A DNA stretch of 31,104 nt from a virus. Positions 11,868 to 31,104 of the stretch are shown piece after piece. Below the pieces are notes generated by a model, which had not been told where the DNA came from, made no database searches, and worked only from the letters and a program-made list of their open reading frames with translations. The position numbers were made by a program, and so were the translations under genes. The DNA is taken from IMG/VR virus record IMGVR_UViG_3300044971_000242, positions 1 to 31,104 of that record, one strand, 5' to 3'. Within the stretch, counting starts at the first letter, position 1, and every line of letters starts with the position of its first letter.

Positions 11868-13931
11868 ATGGCCACCATCAATCCATTCCAAGCCCCGATC
11901 AACTACGCAGTCGATGTGCAAAGCCCGTTTGAGGCTGCACTCGGTGGTTTTAAACTTGGCGCTGGCCTAGAAGAAATTAATGCAGCAAGGCAGAAGCGTG
12001 CCTTTGAGATGCAGCAACTACAAGCAGCCCAAGCACAGCAGCAACAGTATCAATCTGGCCTGAATGCCTTCTTCGCAAAGCCACCTGCCGAGCGCAGGAT
12101 TGAGGAACTGCAGCCACTACTGGTCGGCGCAAACAAGCAGCAGTTTGATGCCTTGAAGCTAATCGGCGAGAACATGGGCGCTGAGAAGCTGGCTTCATCC
12201 AAGCGTTTCACATCACAGGTGCTGCTGGCCCTTGAGTCAAATCCAGAAACAGCCAAGACGATCCTTCAAGAACGTATTGATGCCGAGACAGACCCAAACC
12301 AGAAGCGTGCATTTCAGAACATCCTGACGATCTCCGAGACAAATCCAAAAGGTGCAGCGGAGATGATGGAGTTTCTTGGCGTAGCCTCTGGTTTTGGTTC
12401 AGAGTGGTACAAAGGGATTTCTGATGTTCGGCAAGAGCGCAGGACTGCGGCTCTGCAACCATCAGCGCTTAAGAAGGCCGTTGCCGATGCAGATGCCGCT
12501 GTAGCAGATGCACAGAAAAAGGTTGCAGAGGCAGGAAATACACCTGACAGGCTGAAAGCAGAGCAAGATTTGAGACTGGCTCAAGTCAGGAAAGAAATAG
12601 CGGATGCCGATATAAAAGTCGCAGAGGCAAAAGACGCGCCTTCGCGCTTGGTTGCAGAGCAAGATTTGAGGGTTGCTCAAGCTGCACAACAGCGAGCACT
12701 TACTGCTGCAAGTGTAGGCGCAGAGGAAAGGGCAGCAGCTCTGCAACCAGCAGCACTTAAAGAAGCAACTGCTAAGGCAGATGCTGCTGTGGCTGAAGCA
12801 GAAAGGAAAGTTGCAGAGGCTGAAGATACGCCTTCTAGGCTTGAGGCAGAAGCACAACTAAGACAAGCTCAAACTGCACAGCAACAAGCATTGACCGCGG
12901 CAAGTGTTGGCGGTGAAGCCAGAGCCGCTGCTCAGGCACCAGAAGCACTTAGAAGGCTGGTTGCCGATGCAGACAAAGCCATTGCCGATGCAAAAACAGC
13001 ACAGGCCACAGCAGCAAACGCGGCAGAGACGGCAAAAGCAAATGCTGATCTTGCCAAGGCGCAGGCACAAAAAGCCGTTGTCGATGCAAAGTACGCAGAG
13101 CGTGTTCAAATTGCAGGGCTGGATAAGACCAACTGGGATATCAAAAATCTTCGTGACCAGATAAGGGATCGCTCTGCTCGTTTGAATCTTGACGCTCAAA
13201 AAACAGCGGCAGATGTTGCAGACAAAATGTCCAGCATCAAATCTCGACTGACTGAAATCCCAGCAGAGTCGAGAAAGCTGATCAATGAATCTGCTGCATT
13301 GGCGTCCACTTCCAAACAGGCTGCAGTCCAGTTCAATGATCTGGCCAAGCGAATTGAGGCTGCACAAGGCGGCAAGGGCGCATTTACGTCGGCAACCGAG
13401 TGGCTTGCAAAGGCCACTGGTCGGCAAGACGAGTGGACCCAGATCAGGAACGAATACACCCGCGTGCGCAACACGATTGCGATCAAATCACTGCCGCCTG
13501 GCGTGGCCACCGACAAAGACATTGAGCTGGCTCTCAAGGGAATTCCTCCTGAGACTGCCAATGCAGCAACGCTCGCGTCTTTCCTTCGCGGCATGGCCAA
13601 AATGCAGGACATTGACTCGTCCATCAACAACGCCAAGACCGATTGGCTGTCTCAGAACAACGGCCTGCTGACCCGTGCCAAAGGCACCTTTATTGCTGGT
13701 GACTACGCTGCAAACGCTGGCGAAACGTTCAACGACTTTGCCCAGCGCATTGTTGGTGATGTGGCACAAAAATATCGCTCCCCAGAACAGATTGCAGAAG
13801 AACGGCGTCAACAGGCGATTAGCCAAATACCGACCAACAGAGCGCCTGTAACACCACCAGCAGCGGCACCTGCGGCCACGGCAGCAAGTGTCATGTCTCA
13901 AGCCGATGCAATCCTTCGCGGAGGCAAATAA
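11868..13931 (+). CDS. Probable DNA ejection protein with coiled-coil repeats (P22 gp20 position)
   Basis: The 687-residue protein is helical, Ala/Gln/Lys/Glu-rich and lacks Trp/Cys over long stretches. The N-terminus (INPFQAPINYAVDVQSPFEA) and the KLGAGLEEINAARQKRAFEM helix are typical of internal virion proteins. Residues 192 to about 415 hold repeated coiled-coil units listed separately. The C-terminal half (ATEWLAKATGRQDEWTQIRN, GVATDKDIELALKG, GETFNDFAQRI) resembles the conserved end of phage ejection proteins. It would be packaged in the head and injected to form a conduit. Assignment rests on composition and gene order. Confidence 0.65.
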   Translation: MATINPFQAPINYAVDVQSPFEAALGGFKLGAGLEEINAARQKRAFEMQQLQAAQAQQQQYQSGLNAFFAKPPAERRIEELQPLLVGANKQQFDALKLIGENMGAEKLASSKRFTSQVLLALESNPETAKTILQERIDAETDPNQKRAFQNILTISETNPKGAAEMMEFLGVASGFGSEWYKGISDVRQERRTAALQPSALKKAVADADAAVADAQKKVAEAGNTPDRLKAEQDLRLAQVRKEIADADIKVAEAKDAPSRLVAEQDLRVAQAAQQRALTAASVGAEERAAALQPAALKEATAKADAAVAEAERKVAEAEDTPSRLEAEAQLRQAQTAQQQALTAASVGGEARAAAQAPEALRRLVADADKAIADAKTAQATAANAAETAKANADLAKAQAQKAVVDAKYAERVQIAGLDKTNWDIKNLRDQIRDRSARLNLDAQKTAADVADKMSSIKSRLTEIPAESRKLINESAALASTSKQAAVQFNDLAKRIEAAQGGKGAFTSATEWLAKATGRQDEWTQIRNEYTRVRNTIAIKSLPPGVATDKDIELALKGIPPETANAATLASFLRGMAKMQDIDSSINNAKTDWLSQNNGLLTRAKGTFIAGDYAANAGETFNDFAQRIVGDVAQKYRSPEQIAEERRQQAISQIPTNRAPVTPPAAAPAATAASVMSQADAILRGGK
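12441..13110 (+). repeat. Internal coiled-coil repeats in the ejection protein
   Basis: Three units begin with near-identical heads: RTAALQPSALKKAVADADAA at 12441, RAAALQPAALKEATAKADAA at 12729 and RAAAQAPEALRRLVADADKA at 12921. Each runs into a KVAEA-x-x-TPSRL-x-AE-x-x-LR-x-AQ segment; the first unit contains this segment twice (12525 and 12615 areas). Spacings are 288 and 192 bp. The similarity is clear in protein and partly in DNA, consistent with expansion by duplication. Confidence 0.75.
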
Positions 13932-23621: not shown

Positions 23622-23819
23622 TTAGAATGGAATCATATCTACCCACTTGTCGCAGCCATCCACCGTGGCCGCAAAGTCCTCGGGCGGTGTCATGTCGAAC
23701 ACCAAGCAATGGCCGGACTGGTTGAAATGCTCGCAGGTGTGGCAGCACTTCGGCGGCCCTGACTGCACCCACTGGCGGTAGTCAAGCAGGAACTGTGGCT
23801 CTTGCGGTCTGGTGGTCAT
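23622..23819 (-). CDS. Small Cys-rich zinc-binding protein (65 aa)
   Basis: The ATG at 23819 overlaps the helicase stop (GCATGA) and has AGAGGAG 6 nt upstream. The 65-residue product has PPKCCHTCEHFNQSGHCLVF with C25/C26/C29 and C38, and later C56 in DGCDKWVDM. This C-x-x-C-x-x-F ... G-x-C ... C-x-x-W pattern recurs in phage early proteins and probably binds zinc. Function unknown; tight coupling to the helicase suggests a replication-linked role. Confidence 0.65.
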   Translation of the reverse strand: MTTRPQEPQFLLDYRQWVQSGPPKCCHTCEHFNQSGHCLVFDMTPPEDFAATVDGCDKWVDMIPF

Positions 23820-25417
23820 GCCCAACTCCTCTTCAAAACACGGTGAAACTTCCCATCCATCTTGTACTCAATGCTGCTCGGCGGCTGGCTGTTGCTCATC
23901 TGCACGGCCAGGTACTCCAGCCCTTCGCTTCCGTCCATGTGCGTGGCCTGGGCCAGATTCGCACCGGACGATGTTGCCATCGTCATCAGTTGGCGCATGG
24001 CCTTGTCGCCTGCATACCCGTCGTGCAGCACAGGCAGGTACTCGGTGATCGGCCTGTCGGACAAGCTGCCATAGTAGGTGCAGGACAGCATCTCCTTGCC
24101 ACTGGCCTTGCTGATGTGCCTGCGCCAGTTCCAGCTTGTCACCTCGAGGTCTTTTCCCTCCAGCCCCATGATGTCGTCGTTCCTCAGCTCGAGCTTTTTG
24201 CGCTCAGGCTCTGGGAAGGCATGGCCGCAGGCAGGGCAGTTGGCCACCGAGATGGCGCACAGCTCGCCACAGTTGTCGCAGACCTTCACTGGCGCTTCAC
24301 CGTTGCCGTCTCCAGCCTTCTTGGGCGGCTGCACTGCGGTGATCGGCCCATGCGTGGCCACCACGCCAGCGAAGTCCAGCACCAGGCAGTGGTCGGTGTG
24401 GCTCTTGACACGCATCCCGCGGCCTGCCATCTGGACATAGAGGCTGGCGCTCATGGTCGGGCGCAGCATGGCGATCAGGTCGATGTCAGGGTAGTCGAAG
24501 CCGGTGGTCAGCACGTTGGCATTGGTCAGCGCACGCAGGCGGCCAGCCTTGAAGTCGGTCAGCATTCGCTCGCGTTCCTTCTTCGGCGTTTCACCCGTCA
24601 CGCAGTCAGCGGCAATGCCTTGCTGTTGTAGGACTTCGGCTACGTGATGGGCGTGCTTGACACCTGTGCAAAACACCAGCCAGGCTTTGCGGTCACCGGC
24701 CAGATCAATCACCTCACGCACAACCCGCTGATTGTTGTCGTCGGTATCGACTGCGGCCTGCAGCTCGGCCTCGATGAACTCCCCGCCACGCTTGTGCACG
24801 CCAGTGGTGTCCAACTTGGCCTTGGTGACCTTGGAGCGCAGCGTGGCCAGGTAGCCCTTGAAGATCAGCTCCTCAATGCTGGTTGGTTCAATCAACGCAT
24901 CAAACAGCGCAGGCTTGTCAGTGATTAGGCCATGACCAAGCCTGTAAGGGCTGGCTGTAAGCCCAACCACCCTCAGCGCAGGGTTGATGGCCTTCAGCTC
25001 ACCCAGCAGTCCTCTGTATCCACCCTCGTCCTTGTGGTTGACCAAGTGGCATTCGTCGATGATCACTAGGTCAACGTGGCCCAGCTCCTTGGCCTTGCTG
25101 CGCACCGACTGGATGCCTGCAAAGGTGATCGGCTCACCGAGCTGCTTCTTGCCGATGCTGGCGCTGTAAATGCCCATTGGAGCGCCTGGCCAGTGCAGGC
25201 GCATCTTCTCGGCGTTCTGCTCGATCAGCTCCTTGACATGCGTGAGCATCAGAATCTGCGTCTCTGGCCAGTTCTGCAGGGCGTCCTTGCACAAGGCGGC
25301 CACGATGTGGCTCTTGCCTGAGCCGGTCGGCAGCACCAGGCATGGGTTGCCGTGGTGGCCAGCCTCGAACCAAGCATAGAGCTGGTCGATGGTGCGATGT
25401 TGGTAGTCACGCAGCAT
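23816..25417 (-). CDS. Superfamily 2 helicase, DECH box, with zinc ribbon
   Basis: The start at 25417 is preferred (AAGGGG upstream, overlapping the previous stop); a longer frame begins at 25456. The 533-residue protein has LRDYQ, Walker A PTGSGKS (30-36), DECH (121-124) in VIIDECH, motif III LTASPYR and motif VI YVQMAGRGMRV. A zinc ribbon CDNCGE...NCPACGHAF and a phage-type C-terminal domain follow the core. It is a RecG/UvrB/RAD25-type DNA helicase, likely acting in phage replication or recombination with the nucleases in the same operon. Confidence 0.9.
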   Translation of the reverse strand: MLRDYQHRTIDQLYAWFEAGHHGNPCLVLPTGSGKSHIVAALCKDALQNWPETQILMLTHVKELIEQNAEKMRLHWPGAPMGIYSASIGKKQLGEPITFAGIQSVRSKAKELGHVDLVIIDECHLVNHKDEGGYRGLLGELKAINPALRVVGLTASPYRLGHGLITDKPALFDALIEPTSIEELIFKGYLATLRSKVTKAKLDTTGVHKRGGEFIEAELQAAVDTDDNNQRVVREVIDLAGDRKAWLVFCTGVKHAHHVAEVLQQQGIAADCVTGETPKKERERMLTDFKAGRLRALTNANVLTTGFDYPDIDLIAMLRPTMSASLYVQMAGRGMRVKSHTDHCLVLDFAGVVATHGPITAVQPPKKAGDGNGEAPVKVCDNCGELCAISVANCPACGHAFPEPERKKLELRNDDIMGLEGKDLEVTSWNWRRHISKASGKEMLSCTYYGSLSDRPITEYLPVLHDGYAGDKAMRQLMTMATSSGANLAQATHMDGSEGLEYLAVQMSNSQPPSSIEYKMDGKFHRVLKRSWA

Positions 25418-25700
25418 CGTCGCCCCTTGCTCGGATGGCGGTGTCAACTTCCTCACCAGTCAACACATGCCAGCGTCTCTGATGCGCCTGACGACAAAGA
25501 CTGCGATAGATGGCATCGTCAGCTTTTGCGATGTCGTCCGCTGTGTCCACGTCGTCCAGCAGCATCCAAAGTTGCAATGACTTCTCACGCTCGGCAGCAC
25601 GGGCAAGCTCGACAAGGCGTTCAAGTGCTGGGGCGTGAAGGTCTGACATTGCCTCGCCGTACCCAGCCTCCCGCGCCATGCGGATGATGTCATCTTTCAT
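25407..25700 (-). CDS. Conserved hypothetical phage protein (97 aa)
   Basis: The 97-residue helical protein begins KDDIIRMAREAGYGEAMSDL and has ERLVELARAAEREKS, a pattern common in Burkholderiales phage early genes. The rest is charged and helical, without cysteines. A second frame on the same strand is open over much of the gene (25460-25693) but shares no phage-like features. It overlaps the helicase start by 11 bp. Function unknown. Confidence 0.65.
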   Translation of the reverse strand: MKDDIIRMAREAGYGEAMSDLHAPALERLVELARAAEREKSLQLWMLLDDVDTADDIAKADDAIYRSLCRQAHQRRWHVLTGEEVDTAIRARGDDAA

Positions 25701-25975
25701 TCGGCCACCTCATAAGTTGCTTCAAAAATGTCTGGCTTGCATGGGTACAACTCACCCTGCACCCCTCGGATAACCCAGTCGTTCTCGCTCACCTTCATGT
25801 CGCCTTCAAGCGTTCTGATCATGGCCCAGCACGGGGCCGTCCAGTCTTGAAACTTTCCAGTGTTGTATATGCGAATGCGCTCATCGCTAACCGCATCGTG
25901 GAACCATTCGGGCCAGTCGAATCGGCGCGTGTACTGCACGGCCTCAATGACAACGGGCTTCTTTCGGAACTTCAT
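25697..25975 (-). CDS. PGDYG-like conserved phage protein
   Basis: The 92-residue protein has the well-known layout KFRKKPVVIEAVQYTRRFDW, then MIRTLEGDMKVSENDWVIRG and VQGELYPCKPDIFEATYE. This family (PGDYG-like) is extremely widespread in phages; its function is unknown. The start carries one of the repeated AAGGAGAAGAGCACATGA junction cassettes and overlaps the upstream HTH gene. Confidence 0.8.
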   Translation of the reverse strand: MKFRKKPVVIEAVQYTRRFDWPEWFHDAVSDERIRIYNTGKFQDWTAPCWAMIRTLEGDMKVSENDWVIRGVQGELYPCKPDIFEATYEVAE

Positions 25976-26166
25976 GTGCTCTTCTCCTTTGGCTCATGGG
26001 TACAGGAGTCCTCGTAGTCGAGAATATCTTTCAGCCGGTAGCGGATCAGACCGCCGATTTTGAGATAGCGCACGCCTTGCTTGAGTGACCTGTCGCGCTC
26101 AAGGGTTGCTTCGCTGATCTTCCAGCGGAAGGCCACTTCCTCTTGCGTCATCAGTTGCTCGCTCAT
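25972..26166 (-). CDS. AlpA/excisionase-like HTH protein (64 aa)
   Basis: The 64-residue protein LMTQEEVAFRWKISEATLER and VRYLKIGGLIRYRLKDILDY matches the MerR-type HTH_17 fold of AlpA regulators and excisionases: HTH at about residues 6-26, wing at 33-45. In phages these act as transcription activators or recombination directionality factors. No integrase is visible in the window, so a regulatory role is as likely as excision. The C-terminus EPKEKST is encoded by the junction cassette that supplies the next ribosome site. Confidence 0.8.
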   Translation of the reverse strand: MSEQLMTQEEVAFRWKISEATLERDRSLKQGVRYLKIGGLIRYRLKDILDYEDSCTHEPKEKST

Positions 26167-26285
26167 TGCGGCCTCTCCTCTTCATCAAACGTCATGTCTG
26201 GGTGCGGTATGTCGTCATGCACGATCACCCCATCGACTGCCTCAATGTACTTGCCGCACACCACGCAGTAATAGCCTTCAGTCAT
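26163..26285 (-). CDS. 40-aa phage protein with Cys pair
   Basis: The ATG at 26285 follows AAGGAG with 5-nt spacing. The 40-residue product MTEGYYCVVCGKYIEAVDGV continues IVHDDIPHPDMTFDEE. C7/C10 form a knuckle, and His residues in HDDIPHP could complete a metal site. I recognise this protein from phage early operons but know no function. It overlaps the HTH gene by ATGA. Confidence 0.72.
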   Translation of the reverse strand: MTEGYYCVVCGKYIEAVDGVIVHDDIPHPDMTFDEEERPQ

Positions 26286-26294
26286 GTGTTCTCC

Positions 26295-26489
26295 TTAGTT
26301 CCGTTTTCTCTGCAAGCACGCAAAGTCGGCTCCCTTTATCGTGCGGTCTGTCAGCTTTTTGGACTCTTTGCCCGCCGCTTGACATTCAGCCGCGCTGCTG
26401 AAGCCGGGGATGCTGGTCAGCGCCACGCTGTCTGTTTTGCTCATTGCGCCAGAATGAACAAAAATTACAAGTACCCACTCAATCATCAT
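26295..26489 (-). CDS. Small conserved secreted/membrane-type protein (64 aa)
   Basis: The 64-residue product starts MMIEWVLVIFVHSGAMSKTD, with a short hydrophobic beginning, followed by SVALTSIPGFSSAAECQAAG and DFACLQRKRN. The 'TSIPGFSS...EC-x-AAG ... F-x-C' pattern recurs in small phage proteins; the two Cys may form a disulfide after export. Its start overlaps the upstream stop inside a copy of the second junction repeat. Function unknown. Confidence 0.68.
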   Translation of the reverse strand: MMIEWVLVIFVHSGAMSKTDSVALTSIPGFSSAAECQAAGKESKKLTDRTIKGADFACLQRKRN

Positions 26490-26638
26490 GCTTCCCCCTT
26501 TATGCCATGCGCGTCAATCATCCGGCACTGGCACTTGCCCGGTCCGTCAATGCAAACGTGATAGTCGATCACATGGGAAGCGCCAAGTGCATACATCGCG
26601 ATGTGAATTAGTCCGACCAAAGCCAGAGCGGTTTTCAT
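26486..26638 (-). CDS. 50-aa signal/TM small protein
   Basis: The start at 26638 is supported by AAAGGGGAAGC directly upstream. The 50-residue product begins MKTALALVGLIHIAMYALGA, a signal-like segment, followed by VIDYHVCIDGPGKCQCRMID with three cysteines, and ends AHGIKGEA. It may be exported. The final residues are encoded by the repeated junction cassette. A longer frame from 26830 is a shadow of the neighbouring gene. Confidence 0.62.
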   Translation of the reverse strand: MKTALALVGLIHIAMYALGASHVIDYHVCIDGPGKCQCRMIDAHGIKGEA

Positions 26639-26826
26639 GCTTCCCCTTTTATGCCGTGGGCAAAGGTGGCATAAACCCAGCACAAATAAAATCCAAGTGA
26701 TGTTGATGCTGCAAACCACCAGTCCCCAGTTTTTCCAAGAACTGCAATGGTTAAATAAACCCCTGTGATGATTGCTGCCAGCTTCCAATAAGAAGGTGAC
26801 CCAACCCACTGCCAAATTGATTTCAT
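26635..26826 (-). CDS. 63-aa two-segment membrane protein
   Basis: The 63-residue product SIWQWVGSPSYWKLAAIITG and VYLTIAVLGKTGDWWFAAST and LGFYLCWVYATFAHGIKGEA has two membrane-like segments around 15-31 and 36-53. It ends with the same AHGIKGEA residues as its downstream neighbour. It has the size of a small holin-like or membrane-modulating protein but sits in the early operon, so lysis is not implied. Start and stop both fall in copies of the junction repeat. Confidence 0.62.
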   Translation of the reverse strand: MKSIWQWVGSPSYWKLAAIITGVYLTIAVLGKTGDWWFAASTSLGFYLCWVYATFAHGIKGEA

Positions 26827-27200
26827 GCACCCCCCTTTATGCCGTGTGCGGCTTCGATGGCTCGGTACTCGTCTTCGCTAATGTCAACAGCACCCCGCGC
26901 ATCTTTTTCACTGTAATAGAGTTTTTCACTGTAATAAAGTGGTCTGATTGCTTCAAACATTTCCTCCTTTGTCAGCGGCTTGCGCTGTGGTGGGGATGTG
27001 TAGAGGCGCACATCGGTGGATTTAATGTCACGATCTGGCAGTAGCGTCGGAAATCCATAACGCATCACAACACCGGGCACAGGCTTCTGCTCTGGCTGCG
27101 CCAGCCTATCGCGCAGGGCAATTCGAACAGCCTCACGCTCGTCGGTGTTGCCGTAGCTCATGGCGTCAAACGCCTGCTGCATCAGTTCGCGGTCGGTCAT
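26823..27200 (-). CDS. Modular early protein with RLAQPEQ linker (125 aa)
   Basis: The 125-residue protein has an N-terminal helix (RELMQQAFDAMSYGNTDERE), the DRLAQPEQKPVPG linker, a DVRLYTSPPQRKPLTKEEMF segment and a C-terminal ISEDEYRAIEAAHGIKGGA. This 'RLAQPEQ ... YT-x-PPQR' scheme recurs in modular small proteins of beta-proteobacterial phages. An in-frame duplication repeats LYYSEK. It shares two DNA stretches with the gene at 27331. Function unknown. Confidence 0.65.
   Translation of the reverse strand: MTDRELMQQAFDAMSYGNTDEREAVRIALRDRLAQPEQKPVPGVVMRYGFPTLLPDRDIKSTDVRLYTSPPQRKPLTKEEMFEAIRPLYYSEKLYYSEKDARGAVDISEDEYRAIEAAHGIKGGA
26904..26939 (+). repeat. 18-bp tandem duplication inside a coding region
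   Basis: TTTTTCACTGTAATAGAG (26904-26921) is followed at once by TTTTTCACTGTAATAAAG (26922-26939), differing at one base. On the minus strand it encodes LYYSEK twice, in frame, in the 125-aa early protein. The single mismatch suggests a fairly recent slippage or duplication event. Confidence 0.85.
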
Positions 27201-27629
27201 GTGTTCTTCTCCTTGAGTTTGTCAAAGCAGTGCCAGCACATATATCCGTGACCCATGACAAACCACCATGTGTATGACATTGGGCTGTTGTTAAATCTGT
27301 TCTTCAAACAGCGCGGGCATTGCTTGATCTTCATGTGTTGCGCTCCTTTGCTTTAGCCAGCACTGCGCGTGCAAATTGTTCGCATATTGCTGTTGGCCCA
27401 CCGTCACCCCGATGCTCAACATAAAGGTAGTCAATCTCTTCATCCGTCAGCCCTACCCATTGGCGCTGTGGTGGGGCGGTGTAGAGGAATGGAGTCCATT
27501 TGTCGGGAATTGCCCTTCCCAAATCAACCCACGGCCCTTGGTAGTTCAAGCGGTTACGCATATCCAAACGAACCACCAGATGTGGGCCATCTAACCACGC
27601 CACAGGCTCCTGCTCTGGCTGCGCCAGCC
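26982..27629 (+). repeat. Two dispersed repeat pairs shared by the 26823 and 27331 genes
   Basis: Pair 1: 26982-27006 and 27463-27487 agree at 23 of 25 bases (GCGCTGTGGTGGGG then GTGTAGAGG). Pair 2: 27081-27106 and 27604-27629 agree at 25 of 26 bases (TGCTCTGGCTGCGCCAGCC core). They lie in the same order and encode YT(S/A)PPQR and RLAQPEQ(K/E)P in the two modular early proteins, whose other parts are unrelated. Confidence 0.8.
27197..27334 (-). CDS. 45-aa zinc-ribbon-type protein
   Basis: The start at 27334 follows AAGGAGCGCAACAC. The 45-residue product KIKQCPRCLKNRFNNSPMSY continues TWWFVMGHGYMCWHCFDKLK. C6/C9 and C33/C36 make a four-Cys zinc ribbon separated by an aromatic stretch. The C-terminal KEKNT is encoded by the junction cassette that carries the ribosome site of the next gene. 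Function unknown; likely nucleic-acid or protein binding. Confidence 0.68.
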   Translation of the reverse strand: MKIKQCPRCLKNRFNNSPMSYTWWFVMGHGYMCWHCFDKLKEKNT

Positions 27630-27708
27630 GTGAGCGCAGTTCGTCGCGCTGCGCTTTGATGCACTCAGGTCGCTCGCAGTAGTAGCTGCATGAATGAATG
27701 TCGCTCAT
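27331..27708 (-). CDS. Modular early protein with Cys-rich N-terminus (125 aa)
   Basis: The 125-residue product opens SDIHSCSYYCERPECIKAQR with three cysteines, then RSRLAQPEQEPVAWLDG and PFLYTAPPQRQWVGLTDEEI, and ends FARAVLAKAKERNT. I recognise the N-terminal signature and the RLAQPEQ/PPQR scheme from phage early proteins of unknown role. It shares two DNA repeats with the 26823 gene while the flanking domains differ, suggesting module exchange. It overlaps both neighbours by ATGA. Confidence 0.65.
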   Translation of the reverse strand: MSDIHSCSYYCERPECIKAQRDELRSRLAQPEQEPVAWLDGPHLVVRLDMRNRLNYQGPWVDLGRAIPDKWTPFLYTAPPQRQWVGLTDEEIDYLYVEHRGDGGPTAICEQFARAVLAKAKERNT

Positions 27709-28076
27709 GTGTTCTTCTCCATTGCCTTCTTCAGCGCTGCTTCCTCAGCTGCTCGTCTTGTCAGCCACTTCGTGTAGGAGGCTCTCAAGTAGCGGCGATT
27801 GCTTGCATCGAACTTGCTGCTCTTTGGCTCGATGTCTGGAGGAGGCTCCAGCAAGGCGGTGCGAATCTGTTCTGCGTCCGCGCCGATCAGCCTTGCGTAG
27901 TCTTCGAACGAAGAGGTCTTGCTGAACAGCCAGTCTATGGCTGCGAAGTTCTCCGCACCCGTGGCCTGCTTGCTCGATGCATCCTGTATGGCCTGGGCAG
28001 TAATCGCGGCCAGCAGGCGAGCGCAAGCCACTGTCTGTGGGTGCGCGTTGGGGTTTGATGAAATGAAGTCGATCAT
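27705..28076 (-). CDS. Hypothetical helical early protein (123 aa)
   Basis: The 123-residue protein (DFISSNPNAHPQTVACARLL, AIDWLFSKTSSFEDYARLIG, RRYLRASYTKWLTRRAAEEA) is helical, with a basic C-terminal part. DYARLIGADAEQIRTALLE looks like a small helix-turn-helix-like unit, but this is not decisive. It ends AMEKNT through the junction cassette. The start overlaps the exonuclease stop by ATGA. Function unknown. Confidence 0.6.
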   Translation of the reverse strand: MIDFISSNPNAHPQTVACARLLAAITAQAIQDASSKQATGAENFAAIDWLFSKTSSFEDYARLIGADAEQIRTALLEPPPDIEPKSSKFDASNRRYLRASYTKWLTRRAAEEAALKKAMEKNT

Positions 28077-29104
28077 CCGACAATCCTCCCGCCAAAATCC
28101 TTGCGCATCTCGGCGATGAACGAATCTCCGCTGGCGCAGGCAGCGGCATTGGCCAGCAGCTCCTTGGAGCTGTAGACACCCTCTTGCTCTGGGTCACCAT
28201 TGGCAATGGTCACGCCACCAATCACATAAACAGCCGTCCACTCGTCCGGCCCGTCCTTGCGCTGCCAGGGCACCAAGTCTGGATGCAGGACATGGCCCTC
28301 GCAGCCGGTGCGTTGGGCCTCCAGCGGTATCGTGTCATCCCACTTAACGCAGTGCCAGGTGCTGTCGCCCTTGGCCGTGCTGTGGGCGCAGGTGCGGCAG
28401 TTCACATGCTCGGTGGTCTTGCTTTGGTGGCAGAAATCATGCGCGTCGCAGAACTTGCACTGATACCAGCTCGGGTCTGTGCTGATAGGTGGCGGCATGC
28501 GGTCTTCCTGCGCCAGCAAATAACCACGCCTGATGTACCTCTCGGCCACATCTTTCTCGTAACGCACTCGCTCGGTGTAGATGCGGTCGTCGTCCTTACA
28601 GACCGCCACGTACAAGGCCCGATCAATCTCTGTGCCGTGCATGTAGAGCTGCATCTGGACGAAGTGTTCAGGCTTGGCACTGGCCACCGCGCCAGCTTTG
28701 AGCAGGTCGTCGAATGACTTCTTGCTGTGCGTCTTGAACTCGGCAACGTGGCGCTTCTTGGGCGCTTCTGGCACGCCAGACTCGATGATGGCGTCCAGGC
28801 TACCGGACACATGGCAGCCAAGGTCTACCCTGGTCTGCTTGCCGGATGTGCTGCGAATGTCCATGCCAATGGCTCGCAGATCGCTGATGATGTTTGCCTC
28901 CTCGAGCTGGCCACGCCTGAACAGGCGCAGGACTCGGCCTGGGAACTTGGGCTGCACAGCCCAGCGAAAGCTCAGCCACAGCCATCGGTCGCAAGGGTGG
29001 CCAAGCTGGCTGCACCCCATGTGCCCCCTTGGCTGCTCAGCCTTTGCTTCGTGCGCTTTGTCAATCAGCGCCTGGATGGTATGCTCTGACTCGGGTATCT
29101 TCAT
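28073..29104 (-). CDS. Cas4/AddB-like Fe-S PD-(D/E)XK exonuclease
   Basis: The 343-residue protein has the RecB/Cas4-type nuclease motifs: GSLDAII (Asp104), AEFKTH (Glu122, Lys124) and VQMQLYM (Gln150/152). Cysteines C31 or C38 (CSQLGHPCDRWLW) with C216, C219 and C225 (QCKFCDAHDFCH) match the split four-Cys iron-sulfur site of Cas4/AddB nucleases. A second Cys group C236, C239, C252 and C268 follows, likely zinc-binding. It would resect DNA ends to make ssDNA for the Sak4-like protein. AAAAGGAG lies upstream. Confidence 0.82.
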   Translation of the reverse strand: MKIPESEHTIQALIDKAHEAKAEQPRGHMGCSQLGHPCDRWLWLSFRWAVQPKFPGRVLRLFRRGQLEEANIISDLRAIGMDIRSTSGKQTRVDLGCHVSGSLDAIIESGVPEAPKKRHVAEFKTHSKKSFDDLLKAGAVASAKPEHFVQMQLYMHGTEIDRALYVAVCKDDDRIYTERVRYEKDVAERYIRRGYLLAQEDRMPPPISTDPSWYQCKFCDAHDFCHQSKTTEHVNCRTCAHSTAKGDSTWHCVKWDDTIPLEAQRTGCEGHVLHPDLVPWQRKDGPDEWTAVYVIGGVTIANGDPEQEGVYSSKELLANAAACASGDSFIAEMRKDFGGRIVG

Positions 29105-29133
29105 GCCCGTCTCCTTTTGGTAGTTGCCAATTC

Positions 29134-29167
29134 AGCCCCAGGTTCCTCACGGTTCCTGGGGCTTTTT
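29134..29167 (+). terminator. Rightward-facing hairpin with T-run in the leftward operon
   Basis: AGCCCCAGG (29134-29142) pairs perfectly with CCTGGGGCT (29155-29163), with a further CC/GG pair inside the loop, and is followed on the + strand by TTTTTCTT. It lies in the 68-bp gap between the DUF669 and exonuclease genes. The T-run is on the strand opposite to the operon, so it would stop rightward transcripts. For the leftward mRNA it is only a stem-loop, perhaps a stabiliser or processing site. Confidence 0.7.
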
Positions 29168-29172
29168 CTTGC

Positions 29173-29697
29173 TTACTTCTTAACCCAGGGCGGCGAGGCC
29201 TTGGCCGGTGCAGACGCTGCTGCCGGAGCTGCTGCTGGTGCTGCAGCCTTGAACGCTGCTGGTGCTGCCCCACCGTTGATGGCTCGGTAACCCTTGACCT
29301 CGTTGCTGGCCTCGTAGGTCTTGCCGGTCTTCTCGTCAGTGCGTGCTGCGCGAATGGTCAGCTTGATGTTGACATTGCCACCGATGAGCTGGTCGGTGTC
29401 GGTCACCTTGGCCAGCCCGACCGCACGCATGATGTCGCCAAGCTGCTGGCGGCCAATCTCCTCGGCCTTGGCGCTCGCGTTCTTGATGTTGAGGTTCGAG
29501 AAGATCACACGACCCTGGTGGCTCGGTCCAGTGATGTCCAGGCGCAGCTTGATGTACTGGCCACCACCGTCGTTCGTGTTCTTCAGCTCAGCCTGCGTGA
29601 TGCTGGCGTTGTAGTTGCCTTCTGGCAGCGGCTCGAAGTTGCCGCCAGTGCCTTGCGGAAGTTCGTTTGCGTCGAAAGTTTGTCCGAGAAAAGCCAT
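29173..29697 (-). CDS. DUF669 single-strand-binding-like protein
   Basis: The 174-residue protein matches DUF669: N-terminal AFLGQTFDANELP, LPEGNYNASITQAELKNTND, GQYIKLRLDITGP, VIFSNLNIKNAS and LGDIMRAVGL, in an OB-fold-like order. An Ala/Pro-rich tail ends in PPWVKK. DUF669 proteins commonly lie beside Sak4/AAA_24 ATPases in phage recombination modules and are thought to act as SSBs. AAGGAG lies 8 nt before the start. Confidence 0.85.
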   Translation of the reverse strand: MAFLGQTFDANELPQGTGGNFEPLPEGNYNASITQAELKNTNDGGGQYIKLRLDITGPSHQGRVIFSNLNIKNASAKAEEIGRQQLGDIMRAVGLAKVTDTDQLIGGNVNIKLTIRAARTDEKTGKTYEASNEVKGYRAINGGAAPAAFKAAAPAAAPAAASAPAKASPPWVKK

Positions 29698-29702
29698 GAT
29701 GA

Positions 29703-30092
29703 TTACTCCTTGATGATGTCAATGGTGAAAGAAGGGCGGCCAGGCTTGGCCGTGATTGCGCCAGCCAGTGGCCGAGTGATACGTTCGTCGGAGGCCTTCC
29801 AGATGGCCATGTTGATCTCAGGCTTCCAGCGAAACAGCGTCGATAGGTGATCGGTCAGGCCAGCCTCTGCGGCCAGCTCCTGCACCTTGTCTGCATCCAC
29901 CTTGCGGTCGATGCGACCCACGACCTTGACTCGAAAGCCTTCGAGCGCCAGGGTCTCAGTGCCTTCAGTGTCGTCACGGATGCTTGCAACCTTGCGCATG
30001 GAGTCCTCGAGGTCGCGGCGCTTCTCGATGGCCACACGCTCGGCCTCTTTGGCCTCCAGCCATTCGGCTGCCATTTGCTCCATCGTTTTCAT
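29703..30092 (-). CDS. Conserved phage protein in the recombination module (129 aa)
   Basis: The 129-residue protein begins KTMEQMAAEWLEAKEAERVA, a charged helix. A middle strand region follows (TETLALEGFRVKVVGRIDRK) and a Pro-rich end (AITAKPGRPSFTIDIIKE). Proteins of this scheme (helical N-terminus, 'G-x-x-V-x-V-x-G' middle, 'KPGRPSF' end) are common between AAA_24 and DUF669 genes in phages. Function unknown; a partner in recombination is inferred from gene order. Confidence 0.68.
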   Translation of the reverse strand: MKTMEQMAAEWLEAKEAERVAIEKRRDLEDSMRKVASIRDDTEGTETLALEGFRVKVVGRIDRKVDADKVQELAAEAGLTDHLSTLFRWKPEINMAIWKASDERITRPLAGAITAKPGRPSFTIDIIKE

Positions 30093-30313
30093 GCGGTCCT
30101 CGCTTTCAGCATGGCGTCTGCTATCTCATACGAAGACGTTGCCCAAATGACGATCAGTTCTTCATCGGTGCCTTTATGGTGCGACCAGTTACGCCCCATC
30201 AAACCGGGCAGCGCTCCAATCGCAAAGTAGTCGCGCAAGCTCATTCCATCATCTAGAACTTGATTTTCTATTGCCACTGGAAACGCTGGCCCACCTGTTT
30301 TTGTATAGTTCAT
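30089..30313 (-). CDS. GMSLRDYFA-type conserved phage protein (74 aa)
   Basis: The start at 30313 overlaps the upstream stop (GCATGA); a longer frame to 30418 lies inside the ATPase gene. The 74-residue product has TKTGGPAFPVAIENQVLDDG, then MSLRDYFAIGALPGLMGRNW and SSYEIADAMLKART. The 'GGPAFP ... GM-x-LRDYFA ... AY-x-x-ADAML' scheme is very widespread in phages and without known function. Confidence 0.75.
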   Translation of the reverse strand: MNYTKTGGPAFPVAIENQVLDDGMSLRDYFAIGALPGLMGRNWSHHKGTDEELIVIWATSSYEIADAMLKARTA

Positions 30314-30987
30314 GCCTTGCCCCCAATCTTGGCAAACACTGCGCTCAGGTCCGGTGCCTCCCAGGCATCCAGCTTGCCGCTGCGGTCCTTGGCCAGCCAC
30401 AGGCCATCGCTGTCGCACATCAGGGCACGCTGGGTGTTGCCGTCGCCATCCTTCTCAACCCGCAGCGCCAGCACCTCGTCGAAGAAGTACGGCAGCGCCT
30501 GGCCGGTCTTGTTGCCTGGCATCGATGGCGCGTACAGAACCCGGCCCATCTCGTCCTGCGTCTTCTCCAGCTTGGCGCTCATGTAGACGTGGCGGCCAGG
30601 AAGGTCGCGGAAGGCGCGAATGATGTCGGCCATCTGCTCCTGCATCGCACCGTAGGCCTGGCGTGGGTCTTTGGTCGCCTTCTTCTCAGTGTTGAGCACC
30701 ACCTCCGCAATCTCGCTGATGGAGTCAAGCGCCACCGACTTGAATGCCTTGGCCTCGTCTGCCTCGGTCAGCCACTTGTAAGCCTCCTGCAGATCGGTCA
30801 TCGATGCGATCTCGATGAAGGGCAGGTCTGCGTCCTGGATGGACAGCAGGCCGCCTTCAGCCGACAGCACGATGGGGCTGGGTAGGGTTTTGATCAGCGA
30901 GGTCTTACCTGCGCCGGCCTGGCCATAAACCAGGACTTTCACACCGTTGGCAGCCAGGCTGCCGGTGGTCTTCACGTTGATTGCCAT
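30310..30987 (-). CDS. Sak4-like AAA_24 RecA-type recombinase
   Basis: The start at 30987 follows AAGGAGAGCCAAC; an upstream frame to 31047 would begin inside the leader hairpin and promoter. The 225-residue protein has Walker A GQAGAGKT (22-29), a likely Walker B FKSVALDSISE with Asp88, and DEVLALRVEKDG and ALMCDSDGLWLAKDR near the C-terminus. This is the phage AAA_24/Sak4 family, a minimal RecA-core ATPase that anneals ssDNA with an SSB partner. It is the first gene of the leftward operon. Confidence 0.85.
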   Translation of the reverse strand: MAINVKTTGSLAANGVKVLVYGQAGAGKTSLIKTLPSPIVLSAEGGLLSIQDADLPFIEIASMTDLQEAYKWLTEADEAKAFKSVALDSISEIAEVVLNTEKKATKDPRQAYGAMQEQMADIIRAFRDLPGRHVYMSAKLEKTQDEMGRVLYAPSMPGNKTGQALPYFFDEVLALRVEKDGDGNTQRALMCDSDGLWLAKDRSGKLDAWEAPDLSAVFAKIGGKA

Positions 30988-31009
30988 GTTGGCTCTCCTT
31001 CTTGGGTTG

Positions 31010-31038
31010 CTGCGCTTTCGGACCATCCGGTTGCGCAG
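31010..31038 (-). promoter_or_regulatory. Dyad-symmetric leader element of the early operon
   Basis: CTGCGC (31010-31015) and GCGCAG (31033-31038) enclose a second dyad CGGA (31019-31022) / TCCG (31026-31029) around CCA. It lies just downstream of the -10 element and about 22 bp before the ATPase start. It could be a repressor operator overlapping the transcription start or an mRNA hairpin in the 5' leader. Confidence 0.5.
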
Positions 31039-31045
31039 TGGTTGC

Positions 31046-31076
31046 ACTTTACCATATTTTCCGGTTAAGATGTCAA
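31046..31076 (-). promoter_or_regulatory. Likely sigma70 promoter of the leftward early operon
   Basis: On the minus strand a perfect TTGACA (31076-31071) is followed after 19 bp by TAAAGT (31051-31046), preceded by TGG, an extended -10. The long spacer is a weakness that the extended -10 could offset. It lies about 60 bp upstream of the first operon gene and points into it. The sequence between is AT-rich around AAAATATGG. Confidence 0.68.
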
Positions 31077-31104
31077 CACCCCGCGAAAATTTATTTGGAA
31101 AGGC

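Follow-up and report, generated by a model that had tools for sequence, protein, structure and literature searches.

Three consecutive gene junctions on the minus strand of the window (the whole 31,104-nt stretch of viral DNA analysed, from IMG/VR record IMGVR_UViG_3300044971_000242) share a 27-bp unit, here termed seam B, and the same unit closes genes of unrelated families in many other viral contigs from environmental samples. In our judgement (probability roughly 0.6), seam B is a piece of DNA that carries the ribosome-binding site of the following gene, is kept by translational coupling and is used as a homology joint for the swapping of genes, the common protein tail being a by-product. 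The unit consists of the last eight codons of the upstream gene, AHGIKG(E/G)A, a Shine-Dalgarno (SD) motif AAGGGG, located a few bases 5' of the next ATG in each copy, and an ATGA overlap in which the TGA of the upstream gene overlaps the ATG of the following one. The original prediction had described a repeat of about 22-24 bp that encodes the end of one gene, the SD and the start of the next; the same unit indeed stands at all three junctions, and its measured length is slightly greater. A degenerate 24-nt pattern, allowed three mismatches at most, matched the window exactly three times and gave no match in any of 100 dinucleotide shuffles, which rules out a chance origin. The features of the region are collected in Table 1.

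Table 1 Seams, seam-flanked genes and neighbouring features in window coordinates
Feature	Position	Strand	Remarks
Helicase-like gene	23816..25418	-	Right flank of island; start at ATG 25418 set by relatives
Cargo island	25407..28076	-	2,655 bp; 11 small genes chained mostly via ATGA overlaps
Seam C (AIRARG)	25423..25439	-	GCCATCCGAGCAAGGGG; just 5' of helicase ATG
Seam A, degenerate copies	25972-25989, 27331-27348, 27705-27722	-	More or fewer changes
64-aa gene downstream of seam B copy 3	26295..26489	-	No tail; PHROG 20786 relative
Seam B copy 3	26486..26512	-	GCGCATGGCATAAAGGGGGAAGCATGA; end of 50-aa gene (AHGIKGEA*), SD, start of 64-aa gene
50-aa protein with tail	26486..26638	-	N-terminal hydrophobic segment
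Seam B copy 2	26635..26661	-	GCCCACGGCATAAAAGGGGAAGCATGA; end of 63-aa gene (AHGIKGEA*), SD, start of 50-aa gene
63-aa hydrophobic (membrane) protein with tail	26635..26826	-	Kyte-Doolittle
Seam B copy 1	26823..26849	-	GCACACGGCATAAAGGGGGGTGCATGA; end of modular gene (AHGIKGGA*), SD, start of 63-aa gene
125-aa modular small protein	26823..27200	-	N-terminal helices, linker, PPQRKPLT module, RAIEA helix, AHGIKGGA tail
Seam A	27197..27214	-	AAGGAGAAGAACACATGA; ...KLKEKNT*
Cas4-like exonuclease (phrog_1990)	28073..29104	-	Left flank of island
Sak4-like single-strand annealing protein	30310..31047	-	phrog_124, E 3.6e-59; candidate short-homology exchange enzyme

The three window proteins that end in the tail have nothing else in common. 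The first, predicted to be modular, is a two-part modular small protein without a Pfam or PHROG family at E 0.01. The 63-aa protein, for which two transmembrane segments had been predicted, has a clearly hydrophobic segment (mean Kyte-Doolittle value of 1.84 over 17 residues from residue 15, among its top windows). In the 50-aa protein the segment starts at residue 4 (mean 2.0); the signal peptide that had been proposed for it fits, as does a transmembrane helix, and a weak PHROG match ends at residue 37, ahead of the tail. Searches of the viral contigs for relatives of the 63-aa and 50-aa proteins returned the duplicate record only, and GenBank phages contained nothing that matched the modular protein, the 63-aa protein or the 344-bp DNA. 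When the tail was removed, the three bodies showed no mutual blastp match at E 10; the full-length homology that would have made the shared ending a matter of simple descent was looked for at this threshold and was not found.

The seam B tail, in any synonymous codons and followed by the ATGA overlap, occurs in at least 119 viral-contig stretches. Sampling was pattern-based, and the counts given here are those among the matches listed, which include 122 seam B junctions. Three of these junctions lie in L116, a record 100% identical to the window across 7,010 bp and hence no independent observation. Identical contexts were counted once, and the loci sets exclude the copies of the window (L001-L003) and, in some analyses, L169 and L116, as well as L290 in the analysis of conservation. 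In the three stretches where the stop codon after the tail is unable to form ATGA, all three have a start on the stop as TGATG instead. Among 84,980 bacterial and archaeal species, seam B was found in one stretch only, a Burkholderiaceae metagenome-assembled genome (MAG), and a host search in the family of this MAG found it in none of 26 genomes.

Collecting proteins that end in AHGIKGEA, as the original prediction had proposed, yielded unrelated bodies joined to the same DNA seam, with gene exchange on both sides of it. The 150 AHGI tails, from 115 contigs, gave 147 bodies, which single-linkage clustering of blastp matches at E 1e-3 sorts into 20 groups; the tails and the groups both include L052, a capsid-like protein ending in AHGIIADLTP, which is a chance match with no start following. 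The largest group (n=117) is the modular family, chained through its linker; the parts conserved in this family, separated by variable stretches, are a pair of N-terminal helices, EPVAW, PPQRKPLTDEEI and FARAIEAAHGIKGEA. The 33 tail-bearing proteins that lack the linker and the ARAI motif form 20 blastp groups, or 19 without the one chance match. Profile scans of two sets of 10 tail-bearing proteins left the majority without a family, and three proteins received assignments that stop just ahead of the tail: an HNH endonuclease (phrog_99, ending at residue 148 of 156), a DUF551 protein (residue 234 of 242) and a phrog_5086 protein (residue 105 of 116). The proposal that the three window proteins represent one extremely diverged family, of which the tail is the last conserved piece, can practically be discarded: the linker, ARAIEA and the tail are indeed common to the large modular family, but the window bodies are without similarity, the tail-bearing HNH, DUF551 and phrog_5086 proteins belong to other families, and the tail-bearers without linker or ARAI are spread over 19 groups.

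At the DNA level, 58 upstream-distinct KG(E/D/G)A seams carry about 2 bits per base throughout, except at positions 3, 12 and 21, and the information drops to about 0.1-0.2 bit right past the ATGA. The 28 bodies without ARAIE show the same profile, with a sharp onset a few bases 5' of the Ala codon. The consensus is GCNCACGGCATNAAGGGGGANGCATGA. Within it, ATTAAGGGGG amounts to a long SD, with one G-U in eight pairs on inspection against the anti-SD sequence; a long SD accounts for IKG and the final GC-ATGA and leaves AHG unexplained. A ribosome-binding site alone was therefore rejected as the cause, since AHG and the preceding GCC codon lie outside the SD and are nevertheless uniform, in agreement with the earlier claim that the repeat is longer and more exact than an SD requires. 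Codon usage in the tail is more uniform than the amino acids alone would demand: His is CAC in 88 of 90 seams (background 0.59) and Gly is GGC in 85 of 90 (background 0.44), while the third bases of the Ala and Ile codons vary. The variable bases at positions 3, 12 and 21 are linked among 62 distinct seams (permutation p 0.0005, 0.0005 and 0.009); contig GC differs somewhat between seam types, so phage lineage or GC content may account for part of this linkage.

Conservation upstream of the SD might also be caused by an RNA element, a GCCG-CNCA-CGGC hairpin just 5' of the SD that regulates translation, and all four of its pairs can form in 73 of 88 distinct seams, with the variable base in the loop. 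We regard this as very improbable: a pair is broken in the other 15, window copies 2 and 3 included, no two-sided compensatory change is seen among the listed variants, and seam A (see below) has the GCC codon without, on inspection, such a hairpin. Folding was no better than that of shuffles, and the hairpin was rejected as the main cause on this ground together with the broken pairs; a known RNA family was rejected for want of any Rfam match.

Genuine seams are read in a single frame. Exact seam cores stand in the AHGI frame in 129 of 130 cases; six matches were listed as out of frame, five of them unrelated chance matches and the sixth (L053, the one exception among the cores) on inspection an in-frame seam whose other frame is longer. 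A single frame would fit coupling and equally a role at the protein level. In this regard, the AHGIKGEA peptide might itself be useful, for localisation, turnover or docking, and be kept by different proteins for that reason, as the uniform frame and the retention of AHGI where the SD half changes (AHGIKE, AHGIKENT, AHGIGEKK) would suggest. We nevertheless consider such a protein tag improbable in view of the codon uniformity, which exceeds what a protein would need, and of near-identical bodies on which KLKEKNT replaces the tail. A start codon and open reading frame follow directly after 147 of the 150 tails, a proportion that sampling for ATGA favours, as compared with 813 of 1105 ORFs of at least 120 aa in the same contigs. 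In a structure model of the modular protein, of modest confidence (mean pLDDT 70.6), the last helix stops at residue 118, and the tail, which starts at this point, is modelled as coil.

Seam B is one of several such joints. Seam A (CATCGAAGCCAAACTCAAGGAGAAGAACACATGA, KLKEKNT) has the same plan, is represented by 130 distinct seams, occurs in at least 120 stretches and matches the window four times as compared with a shuffle mean of 0.02. Seam C (GCCATCCGAGCAAGGGGACAAGC-ATGA, AIRARG), again of the same plan, is represented by 41 distinct seams; its window match is by itself not beyond chance (10 of 100 shuffles contain one). With seam A copies at 27197, 25972, 27331 and 27705, several kinds of seam lie in one island. 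Hybrid seams (AHGIKEKNT, AHGIKENT) also occur, and one protein (L225:1128-1535) ends in AHGIGAKLKEKNT, which is the B end followed by the entire A seam. A pattern for the right half of seam B only (ATYAAGGGGGAMGCATGA) found 118 distinct junctions across the loci collected, 83 of them preceded by AHG; the remainder have other residues there, including a few near variants of AHG. A separate family that ends in ...ILREYGLIKGEA (YGLIKGEA) contains the right half of the seam at 12 junctions (L125, L126, L132, L135, L138 and others).

Genes change partners at these seams, in both directions and with sharp borders. Contigs L012 and L113 are alike, save four bases, over the 90 bases 5' of the ATG and are unrelated past the ATGA. 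Conversely, L012 and L031 have the seam and all of the 3' side shown in common and differ upstream of the FARAIE region, a pattern repeated in L021 and L098. In L278 the body of L012/L113 ends not in seam B but in seam A (IEA-KLKEKNT), and L231 shows the same exchange on the body of L018. One and the same gene is preceded, via AHGI seams, by an HNH endonuclease in L120 and by a modular protein in L054 and L056; the endonuclease gene (L120:129-599) has an AHGIKGLV tail, and its activity could help to seed seam swaps. Counted over groups with a conserved upstream side, the downstream partner has switched in 16 of 17 groups at seam B and 9 of 10 at seam A, as compared with 31 of 43 at ATGA junctions without a cassette within 2 kb and 27 of 49 at distant ones. 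In groups with a conserved downstream side, the corresponding values are 10 of 11 (B), 10 of 10 (A), 34 of 46 (near) and 22 of 46 (distant).

Switching at the cassettes is therefore clearly above that at distant ATGA junctions (A and B together, p 0.0007 for upstream-conserved and 0.0001 for downstream-conserved groups) and only marginally above that at neighbouring ones (25/27 versus 31/43, p 0.06, and 20/21 versus 34/46, p 0.05). The first count, with near and far junctions pooled, gave 34 of 37 cassette groups versus 68 of 116 others. A stricter, earlier definition gave the opposite sign in the downstream direction (B 4 of 11, near 31 of 46), which we attribute to shared module pieces scored as upstream similarity. 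The original prediction had offered two options, duplication of the seam at insertion or a seam preferred by recombination; the pair as a whole is supported, since the sharing of seams fits both, while the marginal excess over neighbouring junctions does not single out one of them.

A rival account has the genes arriving by illegitimate insertion, with selection keeping the downstream ribosome-binding site and a clean stop, so that the seam is a scar and not a target. Retention of this kind would explain the conserved frame, ATGA and SD, the existence of partial seams with only IKG(E/D)A in common and the nearly equal switching (31/43) of cargo junctions without a cassette. It seems to us rather unlikely, as AHG and the preceding GCC codon extend beyond the SD and are still uniform across unrelated genes, switches are seen on either side of a single seam, and seams A and B interchange on the same body at IEA.

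According to the homology-joint reading, which we prefer, seam B would most likely have been, at first, just the normal 3' terminus of genes of the modular ...FARAIEAAHGI family. When a new gene was spliced ahead of a resident gene, the retained seam would supply its stop codon and preserve both the ribosome-binding site of the resident gene and its presumed coupling to upstream translation; a protein spliced in this way would inherit the AHGIKGEA tail. Identical stretches of 27-46 bp at many junctions in many phages would then act as homology joints at which more genes could be swapped, probably by annealing at the seam through the Sak4-like protein of the phage, together with its Cas4-like exonuclease. 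A broader and more doubtful proposal is that seams A, B and C form a small vocabulary of interchangeable, translation-coupled joints, a common cloning junction into which small genes could drop in frame and be expressed at once, the seams being selected for the evolvability of the cargo island.

Both empty and filled islands occur among the 13 records surveyed, one of which (L168) gave no sensible distance. The exonuclease and helicase genes touch in four loci (L111, L189, L264 and L065; distance -7 to +5 bp) and are separated by 144-2,655 bp in eight, the window included: 144 bp in L093, L266 and L272, 231 bp in L170 (MW202867.1), 423 bp in L167, 1,296 bp in L029, 1,648 bp in L069 and 2,655 bp in the window. 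The Manatee Spring record MW202867.1 (circular, 34,522 bp) matches positions 23816-31100 in three pieces, with a mean identity of 76%; of the cargo island it has one gene only.

The lambda ninR region and the boundary-linker sequences of lambdoid phages likewise combine a chain of small genes, ATGA overlaps and similar junctions in a mosaic early region. The window seam resembles them in its stop/start overlap and in the SD placed inside the upstream gene; here, three interchangeable seams are distributed over many otherwise unrelated contigs.

The nearest described kinds of element, as far as the available passages of the sources go, are the Start-Associated Sequence (SAS) repeats of cluster K mycobacteriophages and PeSL, the mobile regulatory cassettes of T4-like phages. 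The SAS is a 13-bp sequence, GGGATAGGAGCCC, to which the ESAS adds inverted repeats (PMC3203893). Like seam B, which stands immediately before the starts of genes from different families, the SAS is described there as a repeat that is short and exact, extends beyond an SD and directly precedes starts in many gene families of one phage group, and that is nearly absent from hosts (PMC3203893). It differs in its hosts, in that no common protein tail is described in the passages concerned (PMC3203893), and in sequence, since GGGATAGGAGCCC and the seam consensus show no likeness on inspection. PeSL is likewise a regulatory repeat, located where gene content is plastic and credited with the shuffling of genes, and consists of a promoter and a stem-loop (PMC4503421); the seam is instead a translation signal inside a coding end. 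As to the PeSL attributes, no sigma-70-like site, the one type of promoter scanned for, was found in 26250-27250, and a promoter within the seam was rejected on this basis; a 4-bp stem, the hairpin described above, is possible in 73 of 88 seams, with no compensatory changes seen; and gene shuffling is seen at seam B, with its marginal excess over neighbouring junctions. The SAS and PeSL passages among open-licence PMC papers contain no common tail on many unrelated proteins, and a search of the same kind of papers found no report of the tail letters or of a shared C-terminal tail with coupling.

The relaxed recombination of lambdoid phages offers a further likeness, in that short homology suffices for mosaics; the minimal pairing segment for Red-beta is given as 23-27 bp in the part of the source available (PMC3945230). 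A seam of at least 27 bp is thus long enough in principle, with the reservation that this value belongs to Red-beta and not to Sak4. That source concerns Rad52-like recombinases of lambdoid phages (PMC3945230), whereas the candidate here is a Sak4-like annealing protein known from its gene. Whether the joints of phage mosaics arise through homology between conserved linkers or at random, with selection afterwards, is an old question, and an explicit short linker in more than 100 contigs, with natural recombinants near-identical on one side, makes it directly testable. For annotation, a C-terminal peptide shared by small phage proteins can be a remnant of the joining of genes, and need signal neither homology nor a protein tag.

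Two further observations concern repeats in the window. Within the modular genes, the stretches 26959-27006, 27078-27118, 27433-27478, 27595-27629 and 25663-25695 match many otherwise unrelated contigs; these internal stretches (PPQRKPLT, LAQPEQEPV, DIIRMAREAG) do so at roughly 82-100% DNA identity, and such internal seams suggest that the modular proteins may themselves be shuffled. In addition, positions 12434-12873 contain degenerate direct repeats with a spacing of 96 bp and multiples thereof.
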